A stretch of DNA of 7,121 nucleotides. Source: Cytophagales bacterium (GTDB lineage Bacteria; Bacteroidota; Bacteroidia; Cytophagales; Cyclobacteriaceae). Positions 1 through 7,121 of this stretch are shown here, one piece after another. Position 1 is the stretch's first letter; each line of letters starts with the position of its first letter. A model generated the notes under the pieces. The model saw only the letters and a program-made list of their open reading frames with translations, was not told the origin of the DNA and searched no databases. The position numbers and the translations under genes are program-made. Where the stretch lies: positions 1 through 7,121 of the forward strand of contig DPSB01000035.1 in assembly GCA_003537495.1 (NCBI GenBank). The letters are read 5' to 3'.

Positions 1-172
1 CATCGGTAGTAAATACACCCGAAGTATGAACAACCGGTTGAAGTTGTTCGGCTTTTAGTTCAATTGTGCTTACAGGCACAACATCTTTGGGCGTTTCGGT
101 ACTTGAGTTTTCGGGTGAGCTGCAGGCCGCTAGTAATATGCCTGCTAACATCCATGTAAGAATTGATTTCAT
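1..172 (-). CDS. RND efflux periplasmic adaptor (membrane fusion) lipoprotein, N-terminal fragment
   Basis: Only the first 57 codons are in the window; the gene continues past the left edge. It starts at the ATG whose first base is 172, 19 bp after the tolC-like stop codon, on the same strand. The N-terminus is a lipoprotein signal: Lys2, a hydrophobic stretch, then the lipobox LLAAC with Cys17, followed by a Ser/Pro/Glu/Thr-rich spacer. The next residues, VPVSTIELKAEQLQPVVHT, resemble the first strand of HlyD/AcrA-type adaptors just before the biotinyl-lipoyl-like domain. Adaptors of this family sit in the periplasm and link an inner-membrane RND pump to a TolC channel. Being directly downstream of a TolC-family gene and a TetR regulator supports this role. 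The hairpin and barrel domains lie outside the window, so an ABC-linked (MacA-like) adaptor cannot be excluded. Confidence 0.82.
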   Translation of the reverse strand, partial: MKSILTWMLAGILLAACSSPENSSTETPKDVVPVSTIELKAEQLQPVVHTSGVFTTD

Positions 173-191
173 AGTAAGTGGAATTTTTTTT

Positions 192-1535
192 TTACTTTAA
201 TGGAAATGAAGCTGTTTCGCGTTCAAGATTCGCCATAGCGATAAGTACGCGATACTGGTTTAGGGCAAGTTGAAGTTGCGCACCGGTTAGTTGCGTGCGC
301 GCATCAACCGATTCAATAAATGTATTGGCACCTTCTTTATAACCTTTTTCAATCAGGCGCTGATAGCTCTGCGCAGCCTCTACTTGTTTTTGTGCTGAGC
401 GATAATTTTGCTGCGCACTTAAGAAAGCATTGCGCGAAGTTTCCAACCCCAGATTCATTTGCCGGGTAGTATGTTGTAAGGTGAGATCAACAGACTTAAC
501 ATCTAATCGGGATTGTGCGATTTTATGCCGGTTGGTAAAGCCCGCAAACAAGGGCACTTCCAATTGCACGCCAAGCAAGTAGTAGTTTGCATTGCGATTG
601 TATTTCATTTGTTCGCCTTGAGCACCCAAATCTATAAAGCCACTAATACGGGGCATCCAGAAGAGACGCGTCATTTCCTGTACATCCTGTTGAATATGTG
701 TTGCCGTTTGGAGTTGTAAGAGTTCTTCGCGGTTTTGTGTGGTGTTGAGGTTTGATTCTTCAACGTTTAATACACTTTCCTGAGTAAGAATTTCAGCAGT
801 GGCATCTCGATTCAGTAAAAAGTTGAAATAGAGTTGTGCGTTCTCAACTTGTCTTTCGGCATCTGCAAGTTGTGCTTTGGTATTTTCCAGTTCGCTTTGC
901 GACCGAAGTATATAAGCCGGTAAACCCTTACCGTTTTCAAGCAGCGATTCATTCACCCGTTTTCCTTCTTCAGCCCTTGCAAGGGCACTTTTGTAAATAA
1001 GCACGCCTTGCTGCGCAGCCAGGTAGTTATAATACGACACTTTTATATTTCGAATCAGTTCGCGTTTGTAAATAGCCACTTCTGCTTCCTGCAAAAGAGT
1101 TTGTTGAGCTTTAATCTTTCGGTTGTAAATCAAATCGGTATTAAGGATGGGCATGGATGCACGCGCACGGACATCATAGAAATCGCGCGGAAAGAAATTC
1201 TGATTTACATTTTCAATAGTTGGAAAATTATCGGTGCCAGTTAACTGATTAAGTGTGGAGTAAACCGGGTTTAGTAAATCCCCAACAGGAAAGCTGATAC
1301 TACGACCACCATCGCCAGTGGTGTAATTTCCCAACAGGGTAAGGGAGGGGGAGAACATACCGTTGGCAACCTTTAGTGCCAGCAGAGCTTTGTCTAATCC
1401 AATATTCTTTTGCTGAAGCACGAGGTTGTTTTTCAAACCTGTTTCTATGTAGCCATCAAGTGGTTGCTGTGCAAACACAGGCACTATTGCCGTAATCAGG
1501 CAAAATATAAGGGCTTTAATTAATGGTGTTCTCAT
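192..1535 (-). CDS. TolC-family outer-membrane efflux channel protein
   Basis: A complete 447-residue protein, normal length for the TolC/OEP family. Residues 1-22 form a Sec signal peptide (Arg2, Lys7, hydrophobic core, cleavage probably after VFA). The mature part shows the two OEP repeats: long, Gln/Ala/Leu-rich helical segments at about residues 28-60, 140-245 and 350-440, separated by strand-like segments such as the one around FPVGDLLNPVYSTLNQ and the VQLEVPLFAGF strand near residue 330. The protein should trimerise into an outer-membrane barrel plus periplasmic tunnel that carries drugs or other small molecules out of the cell. It lies 33 bp after the tetR-family gene and 19 bp before the adaptor gene, consistent with co-transcription. 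The ATG at 1535 follows the signal-peptide reading and has no clear Shine-Dalgarno. A palindromic candidate operator directly abuts the start codon. The substrate cannot be told from sequence. Confidence 0.93.
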   Translation of the reverse strand: MRTPLIKALIFCLITAIVPVFAQQPLDGYIETGLKNNLVLQQKNIGLDKALLALKVANGMFSPSLTLLGNYTTGDGGRSISFPVGDLLNPVYSTLNQLTGTDNFPTIENVNQNFFPRDFYDVRARASMPILNTDLIYNRKIKAQQTLLQEAEVAIYKRELIRNIKVSYYNYLAAQQGVLIYKSALARAEEGKRVNESLLENGKGLPAYILRSQSELENTKAQLADAERQVENAQLYFNFLLNRDATAEILTQESVLNVEESNLNTTQNREELLQLQTATHIQQDVQEMTRLFWMPRISGFIDLGAQGEQMKYNRNANYYLLGVQLEVPLFAGFTNRHKIAQSRLDVKSVDLTLQHTTRQMNLGLETSRNAFLSAQQNYRSAQKQVEAAQSYQRLIEKGYKEGANTFIESVDARTQLTGAQLQLALNQYRVLIAMANLERETASFPLK

Positions 1536-1553
1536 ACTAAACAGTGTTAATTG
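1535..1553. promoter_or_regulatory. Candidate TetR operator upstream of the tolC-like gene
   Basis: The plus strand reads TACTAAACAGTGTTAATTG. The core AACAGTGTT (1540-1548) is a perfect 9-bp palindrome around G1544. Six of nine arm positions pair over the 19-bp site. The same core occurs upstream of tetR at 2234-2242, and the TGTTTAGTA arm is shared on opposite strands; the two sites match at 15 of 19 positions when one is inverted. Its place right at the tolC start would suit repression of an internal promoter or of elongation. Binding by the neighbouring TetR protein is inference. Confidence 0.4.
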
Positions 1554-1568
1554 AAGGGGTAAATTTTT

Positions 1569-2210
1569 TTAAGTCTTAAGTTTTTCCAAAATGATAACAA
1601 ACGTTTCGAAGATAGAACTCATGAGTTGATCGAGGTCTTGATCGCTGGCCTTGGCAGCCGCCACATGGCTGAGGTGGCCGGTAGTTCGCAGCGTACAAAG
1701 GCCATGCATGGTACTCCAGATTACAAACGAAACTTGCTCTGTAGCGAAGTCTTTGAAGTAGTCCAGCTTCTGGCATTCCCCCACAGTTTTCAGCAGAATA
1801 TCAAAAGCGCGGTCGCCCTCATCCCACTCTTCAAAACAGTTGGCCACGTGTTTCAGCGGCTCCTCCATATTGAATATAAGCTTATAAATATCAGGGTTTT
1901 GCAGAGCAAACTGGATGTAAGCCCGGCCCATTCCTTTAAGTCTTTCAAAAGGATGCGAGATATGGTTTAGTACTTCAAAATGGCTTACTAATAGCTTAAA
2001 CCCTTCGCTGTGCAGCGCATGCACAATCTCATTTTTGTCTTTGTAGTAGAGGTAAATGGTTGCGGGTGAGTATTCAATCTTTTCGGCAATGGCCCGAATG
2101 GAGGTTGCTTCAAGTCCCTTTTCTGCAAAAAGTAACTTTGCGGCATCCAGAATCTCTCTTTTAAGGTCTTCCTTGTGGCGTTCTTTTCTTTCGGCTACTC
2201 CCATATGCAT
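1569..2210 (-). CDS. TetR/AcrR-family transcriptional regulator with WHG-type C-terminal domain
   Basis: A complete 213-residue protein of typical TetR length. Residues 15-62 form the DNA-binding domain: helix 1 (ILDAAKLLFAEKG), then the helix-turn-helix around TSIRAIAEKIEYSPATIYLY, and the characteristic YYKDKNEIV at the start of helix 4. The ligand/dimerisation half carries a Trp-x3-His-Gly motif (W165, H169, G170), as in the WHG-type TetR C-terminal domain. Such proteins are usually dimeric repressors released by a small hydrophobic ligand. It is the first gene of the efflux cluster, 33 bp ahead of the tolC-like gene, so it most likely controls the pump and itself. The ATG at 2210 is followed by a second ATG at 2204; neither has a Shine-Dalgarno, so the true start could be either. 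Upstream, TTACTTTG (2213-2220, minus strand) is one mismatch from the Bacteroidota -7 element TAnnTTTG, which would favour the 2204 start with a very short leader, but no matching -33 element is seen. Confidence 0.92.
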   Translation of the reverse strand: MHMGVAERKERHKEDLKREILDAAKLLFAEKGLEATSIRAIAEKIEYSPATIYLYYKDKNEIVHALHSEGFKLLVSHFEVLNHISHPFERLKGMGRAYIQFALQNPDIYKLIFNMEEPLKHVANCFEEWDEGDRAFDILLKTVGECQKLDYFKDFATEQVSFVIWSTMHGLCTLRTTGHLSHVAAAKASDQDLDQLMSSIFETFVIILEKLKT

Positions 2211-2228
2211 GGCAAAGTAAACGAAAGA

Positions 2229-2247
2229 TTATGAACAGTGTTTAGTA
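2229..2247. promoter_or_regulatory. Candidate TetR operator upstream of tetR, in the divergent intergenic region
   Basis: The plus strand reads TTATGAACAGTGTTTAGTA, with the perfect palindromic core AACAGTGTT at 2234-2242 and 6 of 9 arm positions pairing. It lies 19 bp upstream of the tetR ATG and shares its core, plus the TGTTTAGTA arm, with the site upstream of tolC. An ideal symmetric site built from the shared arm would be TACTAAACAGTGTTTAGTA, a size usual for TetR operators. Autoregulation from here is inferred. The site is also 135 bp upstream of the divergent receptor gene. Confidence 0.42.
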
Positions 2248-2250
2248 AAG

Positions 2251-2268
2251 TCTGAAATTTTTCTGAAA
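2251..2268. repeat. Short direct repeat TCTGAAA, 11-bp period
   Basis: TCTGAAA occurs at 2251-2257 and again at 2262-2268, a spacing of 11 bp, about one helical turn. It lies in the 171-bp AT-rich region between the divergent tetR and receptor genes. The spacing would suit two protein subunits binding the same DNA face, but a match this short can arise by chance in AT-rich DNA. The rest of 2211-2381 shows no convincing promoter; TATTTTTT at 2342-2349 is a one-mismatch -7 element for the plus-strand gene without a clear -33 partner. Confidence 0.25.
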
Positions 2269-2381
2269 ATGTTTAAAAACGATTCCTAACCCAAGGTTTT
2301 AAGCTGTTTACCACTGGTTAAAAATTAAGCCTAAAGCGCGTTATTTTTTCCGACCTTTATCATTGAACAAATGTTGACTTA

Positions 2382-3764
2382 GTGGTGCGAGTTATTTTTA
2401 CGCTTTTACTTGTTGTGGGTATGTTTGGTGCGAGGGCACAAACGGCAGCTACAATCGATAGCCTTGATGAACGGGTCTTTCTACTCAATGAGCTCGAATT
2501 TTTTATCGACTCGACTAATACACTTTCGTTTGAGGAGATCTCTACCACCAGGTTCAGCAACCTGTTTGTGCGCAGGCCAACGTATCAAAATAAAGATTAC
2601 CGGTCGGGCGAATCATATTGGATTCGGTTTTCAATAAATCACATTCCCACCGAAAAAGTTTGGCTGATTGAATTCTATGATCAAACAATCGATCACATTG
2701 AAGCCTATGTGCCGCGGCCCGATGGTACATATGAAAAAGAGGTTATGGGCGATGCGCTTACGTTCCAGAACCGAAAATTTGCACACAAGAATTTTGAAGT
2801 ACAACTCTATCCGCACGAAAACTCGGTTCAATATTATTACTTCAGGGTTCAATCGCACGAGTTTGCCGATATTCGAATAGCTTTCCGCTCGGTCGATCGC
2901 TTTATCTCTTACTCGCTTAACGAATATTTTTTGTTCGGCACTTTCTACGGCATGATTGTAATCATCGCCCTCTATAACTTTCTGGTGTTTCTGGCCATAC
3001 GCGAAATCAAAAACGTGTATTACATCTTCTATATAATAAGTGTGGCCTTGTATGCCATGAGTCTCGATGGAGTTGGGTTTCAATACATCTGGTCTAACTA
3101 TCCGCAATGGAATAATTATGCTTCCGGTATTTGTTTGTATTCGGTAATTCTGTGGGCCCTTGTTTTTACTCGAAGATTCCTGAGTACGCGCACCAAAGCA
3201 CCTCGGCTCGATCTTGCGTTACGAATAATGATTGTGGTGCGCACGTTGGTGTTTGTATTTGAGTTGTTCTTCTATCCTGAATTTTTTGCCTTCCGGTTTA
3301 TAGAAATCTTGCCGCTTGCGCTGATTTATTATTCGGGTGTTTATGTGTTAATGCGCGGCTATCGTCCAGCGCGGTATTTTGTTATTGCGTTTGGATTATT
3401 GCTGATTGGTTTTTTTGTGCGCACGCTGGTGTTCTTTAATATTATTGCGCTTACTACATTATCTCATTATAGCTTACATTTCAGCTTTGTGGTAGAGATG
3501 CTGTTCCTCACATTTGCGTTGGGCGATAGAATTACCACGCTAAAAGATAATCGCGACCGGGCTTTACGCAGAATCATCCATCAGCATGAAGTAAACATGG
3601 CTTTGAAAGATAAGGTAACGCTGAAGTTGGAGCAGAAGGTAACGGAAAGAACAACCGAACTGAATCATAAAAATACCGAGTTGGAGGAAATCAATACGCG
3701 GTTGGTAAAACAAACCCATGAAATCAACCAGATTAATTCTGTGTTGGATTTGGACAATTGGTAA
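2382..3764 (+). CDS. 7TMR-DISM membrane receptor, probably cut short by an in-frame TAA
   Basis: A 460-residue protein as read. Residues 1-19 are a signal peptide (cleavage probably after ARA). About 30-170 match the 7TMR-DISM extracellular domain (DISMED2-like, beta-rich, with YWIRFSI and KVWLIEFYDQTIDHIEAYV). About 178-382 hold the seven-helix 7TMR-DISM membrane domain, opening with GTFYGMIVIIALYNFLVF and REIKNVYYIFY. About 383-457 form a cytoplasmic coiled coil (EQKVTERTTELNHKNTEL). Proteins of this class sense extracellular ligands and pass a signal to a cytoplasmic output domain. Here the frame stops at TAA 3762-3764, within the helix, with no output domain. The same frame continues after it into a zinc-ribbon module, so the intact gene was probably 2382-4289. 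An in-frame TGA at 2364-2366 limits the start; the first usable codon that keeps the signal peptide is GTG 2382, with GTG 2385 next. Codons 1-460 are otherwise intact, so any inactivation looks recent. Confidence 0.85.
   Translation: MVRVIFTLLLVVGMFGARAQTAATIDSLDERVFLLNELEFFIDSTNTLSFEEISTTRFSNLFVRRPTYQNKDYRSGESYWIRFSINHIPTEKVWLIEFYDQTIDHIEAYVPRPDGTYEKEVMGDALTFQNRKFAHKNFEVQLYPHENSVQYYYFRVQSHEFADIRIAFRSVDRFISYSLNEYFLFGTFYGMIVIIALYNFLVFLAIREIKNVYYIFYIISVALYAMSLDGVGFQYIWSNYPQWNNYASGICLYSVILWALVFTRRFLSTRTKAPRLDLALRIMIVVRTLVFVFELFFYPEFFAFRFIEILPLALIYYSGVYVLMRGYRPARYFVIAFGLLLIGFFVRTLVFFNIIALTTLSHYSLHFSFVVEMLFLTFALGDRITTLKDNRDRALRRIIHQHEVNMALKDKVTLKLEQKVTERTTELNHKNTELEEINTRLVKQTHEINQINSVLDLDNW
3762..3764 (+). 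other. In-frame TAA splitting the receptor and zinc-ribbon reading frames
   Basis: Context is TTGGACAATTGG TAA CTGAAG. The codons on both sides belong to one continuous amphipathic helix, and there is no frame change and no other stop until 4287-4289. UAA is normally decoded by both release factors and no recoding signal is recognised nearby, so efficient readthrough is unlikely. One substitution would restore a Lys, Gln or Glu codon. Confidence 0.7.
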
Positions 3765-3792
3765 CTGAAGAACAGTATTAAAGTAGTGTTAG

Positions 3793-3806
3793 AGGAGCGA
3801 TTAATG
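3793..3806 (+). promoter_or_regulatory. Internal Shine-Dalgarno and ATG that could start the zinc-ribbon protein separately
   Basis: AGGAG (3793-3797) lies 6 nt before ATG 3804-3806, an ideal Shine-Dalgarno spacing, and it is the clearest ribosome binding site in the window. It starts 28 nt after the TAA at 3762-3764, so re-initiation by ribosomes finishing the receptor is possible. However, the motif falls in adjacent Glu-Glu codons (GAGGAG) of the predicted helix, which would produce it by coincidence, and Bacteroidota rely little on Shine-Dalgarno pairing. Confidence 0.4.
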
Positions 3807-4289
3807 GAGAAGACCATGGATTACGAGGAGTTTACAACCTTGTATCCAGACTCGTTGGCGTGCTATCGTTTTTTGGAAGAGCTAAAGTGGAACAATGGCT
3901 TTACTTGCCGCAAGTGTGGCAACAACAAATACTTTGATGGTGCCCGGAAATTTGCACACAGGTGTACCCGATGTGGTTACAATGAGTCGATAACCGCTTA
4001 CACGGTTTTTCATGGTATTAAATTCCCGATCGAGAAGGCATTCTATATAGCCTATCTGGCTGTGGTGGGTAAAAAGCCCTCAACCTTAGAATCCTTGTCT
4101 ACCCAGTTAGATGTAGGGATAAACGCCATTTGGGGTTTCCGCAAAAAAGTAATGGAGCGGATTACCGAATTGAGCGAACACGGCAACGAAATTACAGCCG
4201 CCAAGTGGCAGGATGTAATTATCGATTCTTTTCACAAAACCCCAAAATCGAAAACCAGAACAACCAAAGCAGAAAACGTTTCCGAATAA
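3804..4289 (+). CDS. IS1595/ISXO2-transposase-type zinc ribbon plus HTH protein, no DDE domain
   Basis: 161 residues from ATG 3804; GTG 3786 would add six. Residues 5-30 (DYEEFTTLYPDSLACYRFLEELKW) match the lead-in of IS1595-type transposases. A zinc ribbon follows with C35, C38, C54 and C57 (TCRKCG and RCTRCGY), then the family-typical ITAYTVFHGIKFPIEKAFYI and a helix-turn-helix-like stretch around residues 90-115 (TLESLSTQLDVGINAIWGFRKK). The chain ends in a basic tail (KTPKSKTRTTK) where a real transposase would begin its DDE nuclease domain, so it cannot transpose. It probably binds DNA and, joined to the upstream receptor, would be a signal-controlled output domain. No terminal inverted repeats or target duplications flank it, so it does not look like an insertion sequence remnant dropped into the locus. 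Whether it is made as a separate protein here is uncertain. Confidence 0.68.
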   Translation: MEKTMDYEEFTTLYPDSLACYRFLEELKWNNGFTCRKCGNNKYFDGARKFAHRCTRCGYNESITAYTVFHGIKFPIEKAFYIAYLAVVGKKPSTLESLSTQLDVGINAIWGFRKKVMERITELSEHGNEITAAKWQDVIIDSFHKTPKSKTRTTKAENVSE

Positions 4290-4302
4290 GTTCTTAGTGC
4301 CA

Positions 4303-4324
4303 CGCTTTGCAGCGATTGTTTTTT
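4303..4324 (+). terminator. Weak terminator-like hairpin after the zinc-ribbon gene
   Basis: CGCT (4303-4306) pairs with AGCG (4311-4314) around a TTGC loop, followed by ATTG and a run of six T (4319-4324). It begins 14 bp after the stop codon at 4287-4289, the right place for an intrinsic terminator. A 4-bp stem set back from the T run is weak, so this is tentative. Confidence 0.28.
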
Positions 4325-4407
4325 AATAAAAAAATCATGTACCAAAGTCGTTTAAATATGCCAGTAAACGTTTGAAATCAATGTTTTTATTCAATGAAAA
4401 GGCATTT

Positions 4408-4430
4408 TTCGCAACTTCCAGTTTGCGGAA
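4408..4430. repeat. Imperfect inverted repeat upstream of the susC-like gene
   Basis: The arms are TTCGCAACT (4408-4416) and AGTTTGCGGAA (4420-4430) around a TCC loop; nine pairs form, with two single-base bulges in the right arm. It lies 83 bp upstream of the SusC start codon and has no T run after it on either strand, so it is not a terminator. It could be an operator or an RNA hairpin near the promoter. The remainder of the 4290-4513 gap is AT-rich and holds no gene that can be supported. Confidence 0.3.
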
Positions 4431-4458
4431 GATTAAAGGCACCTTTTATTAAAAATAT

Positions 4459-4466
4459 TAGCCTTG
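4459..4466 (+). promoter_or_regulatory. Possible Bacteroidota-type -7 element for the susC-like gene
   Basis: TAGCCTTG matches the Bacteroidota -7 consensus TAnnTTTG at five of six fixed positions. It would give a leader of about 40 nt before ATG 4514. No TTG is seen at the expected distance upstream (17-23 bp), so the call is weak. Confidence 0.22.
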
Positions 4467-4513
4467 TCAGTTGCTTTTATCAATATTCATACTGCGAAAT
4501 AATCAAATCGCAT

Positions 4514-7121
4514 ATGTCTATGATGAGAAAACTACTATTAACTGCTTTATTTTCAGTGTTTTTGCTGAATTTAGCAATGGCCCAAGACCGTGTTGTGTCT
4601 GGGAAAGTAACCTCTGCGGATGATGGAACCACCCTGCCAGGGGTTAGCGTGTTGGTGCAAGGTACTATGAAAGGTACAGCAACTGACGCGAACGGAGCCT
4701 TTTCAATTTCTCTCGCCCCAAGTGAGACCGCTCTGGTTTTCAGTTTTATTGGTTACAAAACTCAAGTAGTGAGTGTTGGTGCACAATCAACACTGGACGT
4801 TATACTTGAGACGGATGTTACTGCGCTTGAAGAAGTGGTGGTTATTGGCTACGGTGTGGCAAATAAGCGTGATTTAACTGGTTCTATTGTCAAGGTATCT
4901 GGTGAGTCGTTTCAAGACAAGCCAAATGCTAACGCACTTGCCTCCCTTCAAGGGAAAGTAGCTGGGTTATCAATTATAAACAATGCGGAGCCAGGTGCAA
5001 GACCCGATGTGAGAATTCGTGGAACAGGTTCAATTGGAACCACAAACCCGATCTACATTATAAATGGTATTTTCTCTGATAACATGGACTTTATTAATCC
5101 AAGTGATATCGAAAGTATGGAAGTGTTAAAAGATCCGTCCTCACTGGCGATTTTTGGAGTAAAAGGAGCTTCAGGTGCCATCATTGTAACGACTAAAAAG
5201 GCTGCCGATGGAAAAATGTCGGTCAACTTTAATACTACTTCAGGCTTAAAGCAAATGGTTAATAAAATAGAATTGGCCAATGGCGATCAGTTTAGACAAT
5301 TAGCTGCTTTTGAAGCCAACAACCGCGTAGCAGATGATCCATCTGCTGGTTCTTATCTTGATTTCGTTGACAATACGATGAGTTTGTTTCCTGGAAACAC
5401 AGATTGGATTGATGTTGTAACCAGAACTGCTAGATACAGCACAACTAACCTAAGCATTGACGCAAGTACCAACAAAAACCTGTTTCATATGGGTATTGGA
5501 TACAATGTAGACGAAGGTTTAGTGAAACATACACGCTATGATAGGATGAATATTAACCTTAATGATGAGTATAAATTTAATGAGCGCATTAAGATTGGGT
5601 TTAATATTATAGGTACATTTGAGAAGTTACCGTACAACAGCGGTGCTTTGGAGCAAGCAAGAAGAGCCCTTCCCATAATTCCTAGCAACACGATTTCAGT
5701 TCTCGCACCAGATCCTTACAGTGCTTCTCAAACGCTCTCTGAACGTAGTTTATATTACACAACTCCAATTATTCAAAATTCAGAATCAAATCCACTCGCA
5801 ACATTGGAGAATAACTGGGATAAAAAAATTGACAGACGGTATCGCTTTATAGGAAGTACCTATTTGGATGTTAATGTTCATAAGAACTTGAATTTAAGAG
5901 CAACCTGGTATGCCAATTTAAGTTTTAGAAATAATAGAGAGTATACACCTTTATATAATTTGTTTAACCCTGATCTATCCACAGGTGATCAAATAGTACC
6001 CAAAAGTACTTTGACAGCAGTTAGACAAGATTTGGAAAACACCAGAACGTTTCAACAAGATTATATTGGTACTTATAAAAAGCGTTTTGGAGATCACAAC
6101 ATAACCGTAACGGGAGGTATGACCTTTTACTATTATTTCCGCGAGCAGGTTAGTGGCACTGCGTCTCAATCAACTGTTGGCCTAAACATCATTCCTAATG
6201 ATGAACGCTTTTGGTATTTAAATAGTGGTTATGGTGATAAGAAAAGTCTTATACCTAATGATACCAGACAAAACGAGTATGCAAATGTTGCCACGTTGGG
6301 TCGTTTATTATATAGTTATAAAAACAAGTATTTTGTAAACGCTAGTTTTAGAAGAGATTATTCAAGTCAAATCAATACTGACTATGACAAACAGGGCCAA
6401 AATTTTTGGGCAGTTGGTGCAGCCTGGGATTTAACTAGCGAGGGTTTCATGCAAAACATTTCAGTATTGAATGTATTGAAGTTGAAGGGATCAGTAGGTG
6501 TTCTGGGAAATTTCACGGCCTTTGGTTATGATTATCCAGCTTACCCAACTATTTCGACTAACTCATCTGCAGTTTTTGGTAACAACTTCGTTCCTGTGTA
6601 TGTTCAAGATTATGTTGCTGATCCTAATTTGCGGTGGGAAACCATTCAATCCGCAGAGATAGGATTTGAATCGGATTGGTTTGAAGATAAATTCCATTTC
6701 GAAGCAAATTATTATCAACGTAATACACAAGATCTGATAGTGGTTCTGTCTTATCCCGGTCAATTAAGACAAATGACCAACAATGGAAAAATTGATAACT
6801 CAGGTTTTGAATTTGTAGCGTCATGGAATCAGAAATTATCAAATGACATTACACTTACGCTTGGAGGAAATCTGACAACCTTTAAAAATAAGGTAGCTTA
6901 TTTGCCACTTCCGTACAGAGCCAATATTTCTTCTAGCGAACAAACACCCAATCAGATTGAAACGGGTTACCCAATCGGTTATTTTTATGGTTTGAAAGTG
7001 ATTGGGTTATATCAATCGTATGCGGATATTTTAGCTTCTCCTCCAAGTTCGATTAACGGAGGTGGTGCAAAACCTGGAGACTTGAAATATGCAGATATTG
7101 ATGGCAATGGTGTTATAGACT
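4514..7121 (+). CDS. SusC/RagA-family TonB-linked outer-membrane transporter, C-terminus outside the window
   Basis: An open frame of 869 codons reaching the right edge; the family usually has about 1000-1100 residues, so most of the gene is here. Residues 1-23 are a signal peptide (MRKLLLTALFSVFLLNLAMA, then Gln). About 27-105 form the carboxypeptidase-D-regulatory-like domain (GKVTSADDGTTLPGVSVLVQGT, FSFIGYKTQ). LEEVVVIGYG near 105-114 is the TonB-box-like linker. About 118-228 form the plug, with RIRGTGSI, INPSDIESMEVLKDPSS and ASGAIIVTTKK, the SusC/RagA signature. The rest is beta-barrel, ending near the typical GDLKYADIDGNGVID. The protein imports a large substrate (often glycan oligomers or peptides) across the outer membrane with TonB energy, usually under a SusD lipoprotein lid encoded next. 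There is no N-terminal STN signalling domain, so it is not of the anti-sigma-coupled type. In-frame ATGs at 4520 and 4523 are alternative starts; none has a Shine-Dalgarno. The substrate is unknown. Confidence 0.94.
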   Translation, partial: MSMMRKLLLTALFSVFLLNLAMAQDRVVSGKVTSADDGTTLPGVSVLVQGTMKGTATDANGAFSISLAPSETALVFSFIGYKTQVVSVGAQSTLDVILETDVTALEEVVVIGYGVANKRDLTGSIVKVSGESFQDKPNANALASLQGKVAGLSIINNAEPGARPDVRIRGTGSIGTTNPIYIINGIFSDNMDFINPSDIESMEVLKDPSSLAIFGVKGASGAIIVTTKKAADGKMSVNFNTTSGLKQMVNKIELANGDQFRQLAAFEANNRVADDPSAGSYLDFVDNTMSLFPGNTDWIDVVTRTARYSTTNLSIDASTNKNLFHMGIGYNVDEGLVKHTRYDRMNINLNDEYKFNERIKIGFNIIGTFEKLPYNSGALEQARRALPIIPSNTISVLAPDPYSASQTLSERSLYYTTPIIQNSESNPLATLENNWDKKIDRRYRFIGSTYLDVNVHKNLNLRATWYANLSFRNNREYTPLYNLFNPDLSTGDQIVPKSTLTAVRQDLENTRTFQQDYIGTYKKRFGDHNITVTGGMTFYYYFREQVSGTASQSTVGLNIIPNDERFWYLNSGYGDKKSLIPNDTRQNEYANVATLGRLLYSYKNKYFVNASFRRDYSSQINTDYDKQGQNFWAVGAAWDLTSEGFMQNISVLNVLKLKGSVGVLGNFTAFGYDYPAYPTISTNSSAVFGNNFVPVYVQDYVADPNLRWETIQSAEIGFESDWFEDKFHFEANYYQRNTQDLIVVLSYPGQLRQMTNNGKIDNSGFEFVASWNQKLSNDITLTLGGNLTTFKNKVAYLPLPYRANISSSEQTPNQIETGYPIGYFYGLKVIGLYQSYADILASPPSSINGGGAKPGDLKYADIDGNGVID

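Follow-up and report, generated by a model that had tools for sequence, protein, structure and literature searches.

The window analysed here is a 7,121-nt stretch from a Cytophagales bacterium (GCA_003537495.1, contig DPSB01000035.1, positions 1-7,121, forward strand) that carries, directly before a susC-type transporter gene, a gene in which a membrane receptor is joined to a zinc ribbon and helix-turn-helix (HTH) of the kind found in IS1595 transposases. Positions 2382-4289 on the + strand form a single frame of 635 codons with one in-frame TAA at codon 461, and the domain order along it is DISMED2, 7TM, coiled coil, IS1595-type zinc ribbon and HTH, the first two encoded before the TAA and the ribbon after it:

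2382-3764, + strand: receptor part of the regulator gene, up to the in-frame TAA (frame reading, Pfam).
2490-2879, + strand: sensor domain 7TMR-DISMED2, residues 37-166 (PF07696, 83.3 bits, cut-off 22).
2922-3530, + strand: membrane domain 7TMR-DISM_7TM, seven helices, residues 181-383 (PF07695, 150.3 bits, cut-off 29).
3531-3854, + strand: coiled-coil linker, its length varying among relatives nearly always by multiples of seven residues.
3762-3764, + strand: in-frame TAA stop, absent from all relatives read.
3855-3980, + strand: zinc ribbon (PF12760 Zn_ribbon_IS1595, 38.5 bits, cut-off 25.4).
4029-4178, + strand: predicted three-helix HTH unit (AlphaFold2 helices; homology to the pre-DDE part of IS1595 transposases).

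An initial annotation, made from the letters alone, had described a DISMED2-like sensor, seven membrane helices, a CxxC-x15-CxxC zinc ribbon, an HTH-like segment and no DDE domain, and the analysis confirms this observation. Both hallmarks of 7TMR-DISM receptors, the 7TM domain and the DISMED extracellular domain, are present in the window protein above Pfam cut-offs, and in the closest intact relative (L001) the hydropathy windows merge, by our reading, into seven segments after a signal peptide. The cysteine codons of the ribbon start at 3906, 3915, 3963 and 3972. An AlphaFold2 model of positions 3765-4286 (mean predicted local distance difference test score, pLDDT, of 82; ten-residue means of 79-96 over residues 21-150) contains two ribbon strands followed by helices at residues 89-101, 108-115 and 119-138, a three-helix unit spanning 89-138; structure matches were weak. 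Pfam searches of the window protein at E ≤ 1 returned no DDE family, no histidine kinase, receiver or AraC domain, and no DUF6377. The claim of one frame holds for the 635 codons as a whole, but the window copy is interrupted by the TAA, which the annotation had named only indirectly, by speaking of a concatenated translation.

Using the window translation as query, with the stop read as one residue, we found 937 proteins at E ≤ 1e-3. The best match is 97% identical over 100% of the length, and the best 120 of the 937 are 546-678 residues long and all carry PF07695 and PF07696. The four cysteines are kept in 28/28 relatives aligned with the window, including nine that have no precomputed ribbon annotation, and are invariant in all 43 rows of alignment A4. 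Uninterrupted homologues with the same domain order, which the annotation had proposed as its check, are common: none of the 40 loci fetched from named genomes of Cyclobacteriaceae, Fulvivirgaceae, Algoriphagus, Flammeovirga and others has an internal stop and all keep CxxC...CxxC, while the output domain is matched at E ≤ 1e-20 in 105 of 291 genomes of the order of Chryseolinea lacunae (G010; Cytophagales in NCBI), most of the matches listed for that search lying in frames of 600-720 residues. Intact homologues therefore exist, and the ribbon is not confined to stand-alone proteins or to proteins with a DDE domain, the two outcomes against which the annotation had set its proposal. The receptor plus zinc ribbon/HTH architecture is a real family present in many Cytophagales. 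Its members are named in databases as 'transposase', 'sensor histidine kinase LadS' or 'hypothetical protein', among others, names that hide their likely role, and we found no earlier description of this receptor/output family in the literature searched.

The linker between the two halves is strikingly regular. Measured from D382, which follows the last membrane helix, up to the first cysteine, it is 127 residues long in 32 of the 43 proteins of A4, 134 in five, 141 in four, and 120 and 128 in one each, so that 42 of the 43 have 120, 127, 134 or 141 residues. Judged from length, these seven-residue steps would suit a coiled coil with a register under constraint. The initial annotation had already held an ordered linker against chance insertion, and the lengths make that argument stronger than it could see. 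Relative to the closest relative, the ratio of nonsynonymous to synonymous substitution rates (dN/dS, own Nei-Gojobori script) is 0.067 before the stop and 0.055 after it; both sides of the stop are under purifying selection. The TAA is most probably a sequence error or a recent loss or change. In the window copy it separates receptor from output; so interrupted, this copy is an example of the family and, as sequenced, not of a working gene. Seen alone, the window with its stop codon would allow the reading that a transposon fragment was inserted by chance into a receptor gene; with the domain order kept in 40/40 loci, dN/dS about 0.06 in both parts and a heptad-spaced linker, we regard that reading as scarcely credible.

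The origin of the output domain is indicated by comparison with transposases. The ribbon and HTH align with a profile of seven IS1595 transposases (hhalign, 99.9%, E 8e-33) over residues 14-135 and 122 columns, and the alignment ends before the first conserved Asp, that is, short of the DDE domain, which supports the proposal of the annotation that a transposon DNA-binding module has been recruited as a receptor output. The NCBIfam IS1595 model NF033547 matches weakly (20.9 bits against a cut-off of 75, profile positions 3-53 only) over the region after the ribbon; the matched part of the model lies ahead of the catalytic domain. A tree was built from 61 receptor outputs, five transposases and 12 solo proteins, leaving out L118 and L124 (copies of other loci) and the transposase L132 (removed by a length and motif filter). 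In it, transposases L091 and L093 group with the receptor outputs and ten solo proteins (support 99/97); the other three transposases and two solo proteins fall apart from this group. The branching order within the group is not settled, so one or several recruitments are both possible, and with few transposases in the tree the donor of the module is not fixed. In 29 of 33 genomes there are one or two output-domain matches each, with conserved neighbours, which is not the pattern of a mobile multicopy element; G026, G030, G032 and G033 have 4-30 matches, those of G026 and G030 including transposases.

The same output also occurs on another sensor. Two long proteins, L167 and L168, fuse it to Reg_prop and Y_Y_Y domains, which we take to be the propeller sensor of hybrid two-component systems (HTCS), and L168 is followed by susC. 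A search with this type of output listed 86 long proteins, 82 with 7TM receptor domains and four with the propeller sensor, one of these being L168 itself.

Several other carriers of the ribbon were seen. L091, from Flammeovirga aprica, is cut by a contig end; its ribbon/HTH is close to a receptor output and it reads into a DDE-type motif, and it is therefore an IS1595 element. It and L092 lie in a genome (G030) with 20 similar zinc-ribbon open reading frames (ORFs), many at contig ends. One genome (G475) has several transposase-like copies of 304-332 residues (L147-L150) whose ribbon/HTH reaches 48% identity with a receptor output; on inspection by eye the Asp residues at their catalytic positions seem to have been substituted, and domestication is a possible reading. 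Free-standing ribbon/HTH-only proteins (P0187-P0226, except P0202, and L155) are about 36-44% identical, and 36 of 39 such proteins are 135-147 residues long.

The gene neighbourhood ties the family to polysaccharide loci. Besides the regulator, the window contains:

192-1535, - strand: outer membrane efflux protein (OEP; PF02321), upstream in 5/40 loci, a neighbour outside the mechanism.
1569-2210, - strand: TetR-family regulator (PF00440, PF13305), upstream in 5/40 loci, a neighbour.
4514-7120, + strand: susC/ragA-type TonB-dependent transporter (TIGR04056, 600.3 bits, cut-off 368.25), running off the window.

The listed susC start at 4394 is probably too early, close relatives starting at MSMMRKLL (4514) or nearby. 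A susC-type gene lies downstream on the same strand in 33 of the 40 loci (as the next ORF in 32, after two ORFs in L030), and 31 of the 40 have a susD-type gene. Among 72 regulators, 46 are followed by susC as the next ORF on the same strand, compared with 6 of 423 other ORFs of at least 150 residues, and susC lies within 6 kb of 51 of 73 regulators; in both counts L118 repeats L037. A draw of 395 genomes from the phylum gave output-domain matches in 47 and receptor-sized frames in 11; all nine newly fetched regulators from these 11 genomes (G452 was left out) have susC at most 4 kb downstream on the same strand. Enzymes encoded at the loci include PF10091 and glycoside hydrolase family 3 (GH3) members together with LamG-type proteins, and the PF10091 protein L085 matches a solved endo-beta-1,2-glucanase (PDB 5gzh, E 4e-154). 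A paralog locus contains GH30 and a Flammeovirga locus two sulfatases.

Between regulator and susC, two direct copies of about AATGTTTTT-N8-AAAA have been kept while other intergenic sequence diverged. The features in the window are:

4314-4337, + strand: tandem promoter element, copy 1 (position weight matrix pair scan; also direct repeat 4306-4323).
4379-4402, + strand: tandem promoter element, copy 2, 65 bp downstream of copy 1 (position weight matrix pair scan, direct repeat).
4410-4427, + strand: CGCAACTTCCAGTTTGCG, a short inverted repeat (CGCAA..TTGCG) that follows the tandem element and precedes susC, kept in the closest relatives (its 17-base core has at most one mismatch across the window and eight close loci).

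The pair scan of 962,687 bases on both strands found pairs 64-66 bp apart in 22/40 loci and the window; its model had been built from the very promoters that it describes, in related genomes. Five block-shuffled copies of the scanned sequence gave no pairs. Two low-scoring minus-strand pairs overlap the L004 site. Over 30 pairs (the 22 loci, the window, three distant sites and four further loci) the spacing is 65 bp in 18, 66 bp in 11 and 64 bp in one. The full pair follows the regulator phylogeny: it is present in 22 of 27 loci inside the clade of the window's regulator and in none of the 13 outside, where L025, L026 and L032 have one strong copy each and the best promoter self-match of L025 and L032 is also spaced, by 65 and 64 bp. 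In L030 the pair comes after the two ORFs that follow the regulator and directly before susC, so that it stays with susC; in L010 it comes after three ORFs, near a contig end. The pair also occurs in L160 and L161, which were found through the protein alone and share about 70% identity with members of the clade.

A strict pattern matched 21 places in 33 whole genomes, 12 beside the regulator, three before a glucanase-type operon elsewhere (G009, G012 and G025, identified by PF10091 in G025 and by BLAST likeness in the others) and six that look like chance, and a reversed control pattern gave five matches. Across the 291 genomes of the order, matches were found in 29 and reversed-control matches in 16; by eye, from flanking sequence, three of the 29 were judged real (G010, G204 and G308), and the new convincing sites in G204 and G308 adjoin a regulator. 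A CRISPR-like array with a 66-bp period (G069:C129, 10237-11311) matches the element pattern by accident.

A second regulator clade has a different element: in five paralogous loci (L111, L113-L116) the stretch from regulator to susC contains two copies of GCGTATCA or CCGTATCA, spaced by 78-79 bp. The paralog pattern matches six places in 33 genomes, five beside these paralogs and one in a repeat array in G028, itself one of the genomes with these paralogs, and its reversed control gave no match in the same genomes. The GCGTATCA tandem is thus beside the regulator in 5/5 paralog genomes and beside none in the 28 others. L112 (G015), a sister of the five, has neither the tandem nor susC beside its regulator.

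Several lines of evidence suggest how these parts may work together. We consider it probable that the family consists of membrane-anchored one-component transcription regulators of the adjoining susC/susD operon, which would bind the tandem sites and activate susC. DISMED2 would sense a glycan outside the inner membrane, for the window clade likely a beta-1,2-glucan fragment; the signal would pass through the seven helices and then through a dimeric coiled coil with kept register; and two output domains would bind the two direct-repeat sites 64-66 bp apart before susC, with activation rather than repression as the presumed effect. Weighing against this proposal, all eight regulators read in the multi-paralog genomes G185, G234 and G048 are without susC in the stretch examined. 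It is also conceivable, though we think it unlikely, that the receptor signals through the zinc ribbon to another protein and that the tandem element serves some other regulator, such as one of LacI type. Co-occurrence of regulator and element is no proof of binding, a zinc ribbon can serve as a protein-binding module, and most second copies of the element carry a CGTTTG-like core, presumably reminiscent of LacI-type sites. Against a different regulator, however, stand the observation that each of the two regulator clades adjoins a tandem element of its own; the retention of the HTH, with a third-helix region that is not the same in both clades (RVNTVW or GVNAIW, for instance, as opposed to RQSTCW); and upstream neighbours that vary between loci.

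Instead of a DNA operator, the element could be part of a susC RNA leader or riboswitch: in loci with the pair, about 115-170 bases separate the beginning of the second copy from the called susC start, a distance that a leader could span. The window leader nevertheless folds no better than shuffles (z -0.27), a double change among nine sequences, window included, is seen at just one of the 20 predicted pairs, and there is no Rfam match, so that we give this explanation very little weight relative to DNA operators bound by the receptor.

The transporter gene of the window is itself unusual. The regulator is 95% identical to that of L001, from the metagenome-assembled genome UWPOB_CYTO2, with which the window is colinear (91.8% identical over positions 1-4857), while the susC body diverges: identity is 84-99% per 100 bases up to about 4700, including 87-96% from the susC start to that point, and then about 45-70%. 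The best protein match to the window susC body in 13 related genomes is 34%. Two explanations fit the stretch from about 4700 to 7120: an in-frame replacement of the susC body, or a chimeric contig. When L012 is compared with L016 and L022, the regulators are 74-76% identical and the susC starts 57-60%, the susC bodies only 38%. From such comparisons, susC bodies may have been exchanged behind this regulator in other lineages too. This bears on the idea, suggested by the transposase origin, that the output marks or steers DNA recombination at susC loci, the window susC body having been replaced behind a conserved start. The drop in identity past about 4700 despite the 95% identical regulator agrees with it, as do 5 of 14 other pairs, where the susC bodies resemble each other less than the regulators do. 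In the remaining 9 of 14, however, the body is as alike as the regulator or more so, the protein has no catalytic domain and the L001 genome contains a single copy of the susC start, and a role in recombination therefore seems highly improbable beside one in transcription.

The proposed regulator combines properties of known systems. SusR-like regulators are described in PMC3878776 as membrane proteins with a cytosolic DNA-binding domain, predicted to use direct repeats at a centre-to-centre distance of 67 or 77 bp. The present family is like them in being a membrane protein with an outer sensor, a predicted cytosolic DNA-binding domain and susC/susD operons, and the spacings of its predicted operators, 64-66 and 78-79 bp, resemble the 67/77 bp given in PMC3878776; we therefore compared loci around SusE/SusF-type genes. 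Two proteins encoded next to GH97 and susC and taken as SusR-like from their position and domains (L182, 6120-7724, and L188, 11638-13281; SusR itself was not in the comparison), carry DUF6377 and a terminal HTH but no zinc ribbon, and the output profile scored 4.5 and 2.9 bits on them, no significant match. The family is therefore predicted to work like SusR but lies outside the SusR family by these tests. It resembles HTCS as a single-chain membrane sensor with a predicted DNA-binding output at polysaccharide loci, in two proteins with the Reg_prop/Y_Y_Y sensor, and differs from them in having no histidine kinase, receiver or AraC domain and in its repeat spacing of 64-79 bp, against an average of 21 bp for the direct repeats predicted as HTCS operators in PMC3878776.

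With 7TMR-DISM receptors of the LadS, RetS and SagS types the family shares DISMED2 and 7TM. The usual outputs of such receptors are a kinase, GGDEF or PP2C; here the output is a zinc ribbon/HTH. There is a precedent for a DNA-binding output on this receptor type in the 7TMR-DISM proteins with a ChiS-type DNA-binding domain shown in PMC8092284. The ChiS-family domain is, as described there, another HTH variant and proteobacterial, and is set apart here on that description; the words zinc and transposase are absent from the main text of PMC8092284. IS1595/ISXO2 transposases share the homologous ribbon and HTH, N-terminal there and C-terminal to a receptor here, and differ by their DDE domain and by the absence of a receptor fusion and of conserved loci.

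SusR, HTCS and ECF-sigma/anti-sigma pairs (ECF, extracytoplasmic function) are three classes of regulator at polysaccharide loci. We favour, somewhat less firmly than transcriptional regulation of susC itself, the view that the ribbon/HTH is an interchangeable output module on 7TMR-DISM and HTCS-type sensors and would form a fourth class, with tandem operators particular to each clade and a long spacing converged with that of SusR, as if set by a membrane-tethered dimer. The long spacing common with SusR raises the general question of how membrane-bound dimers read DNA, and with a candidate operator in hand the model is directly testable. If true, it would add a regulator class to the well-studied switching of Bacteroidota polysaccharide loci and provide a clean case of a transposon DNA-binding module turned receptor output.
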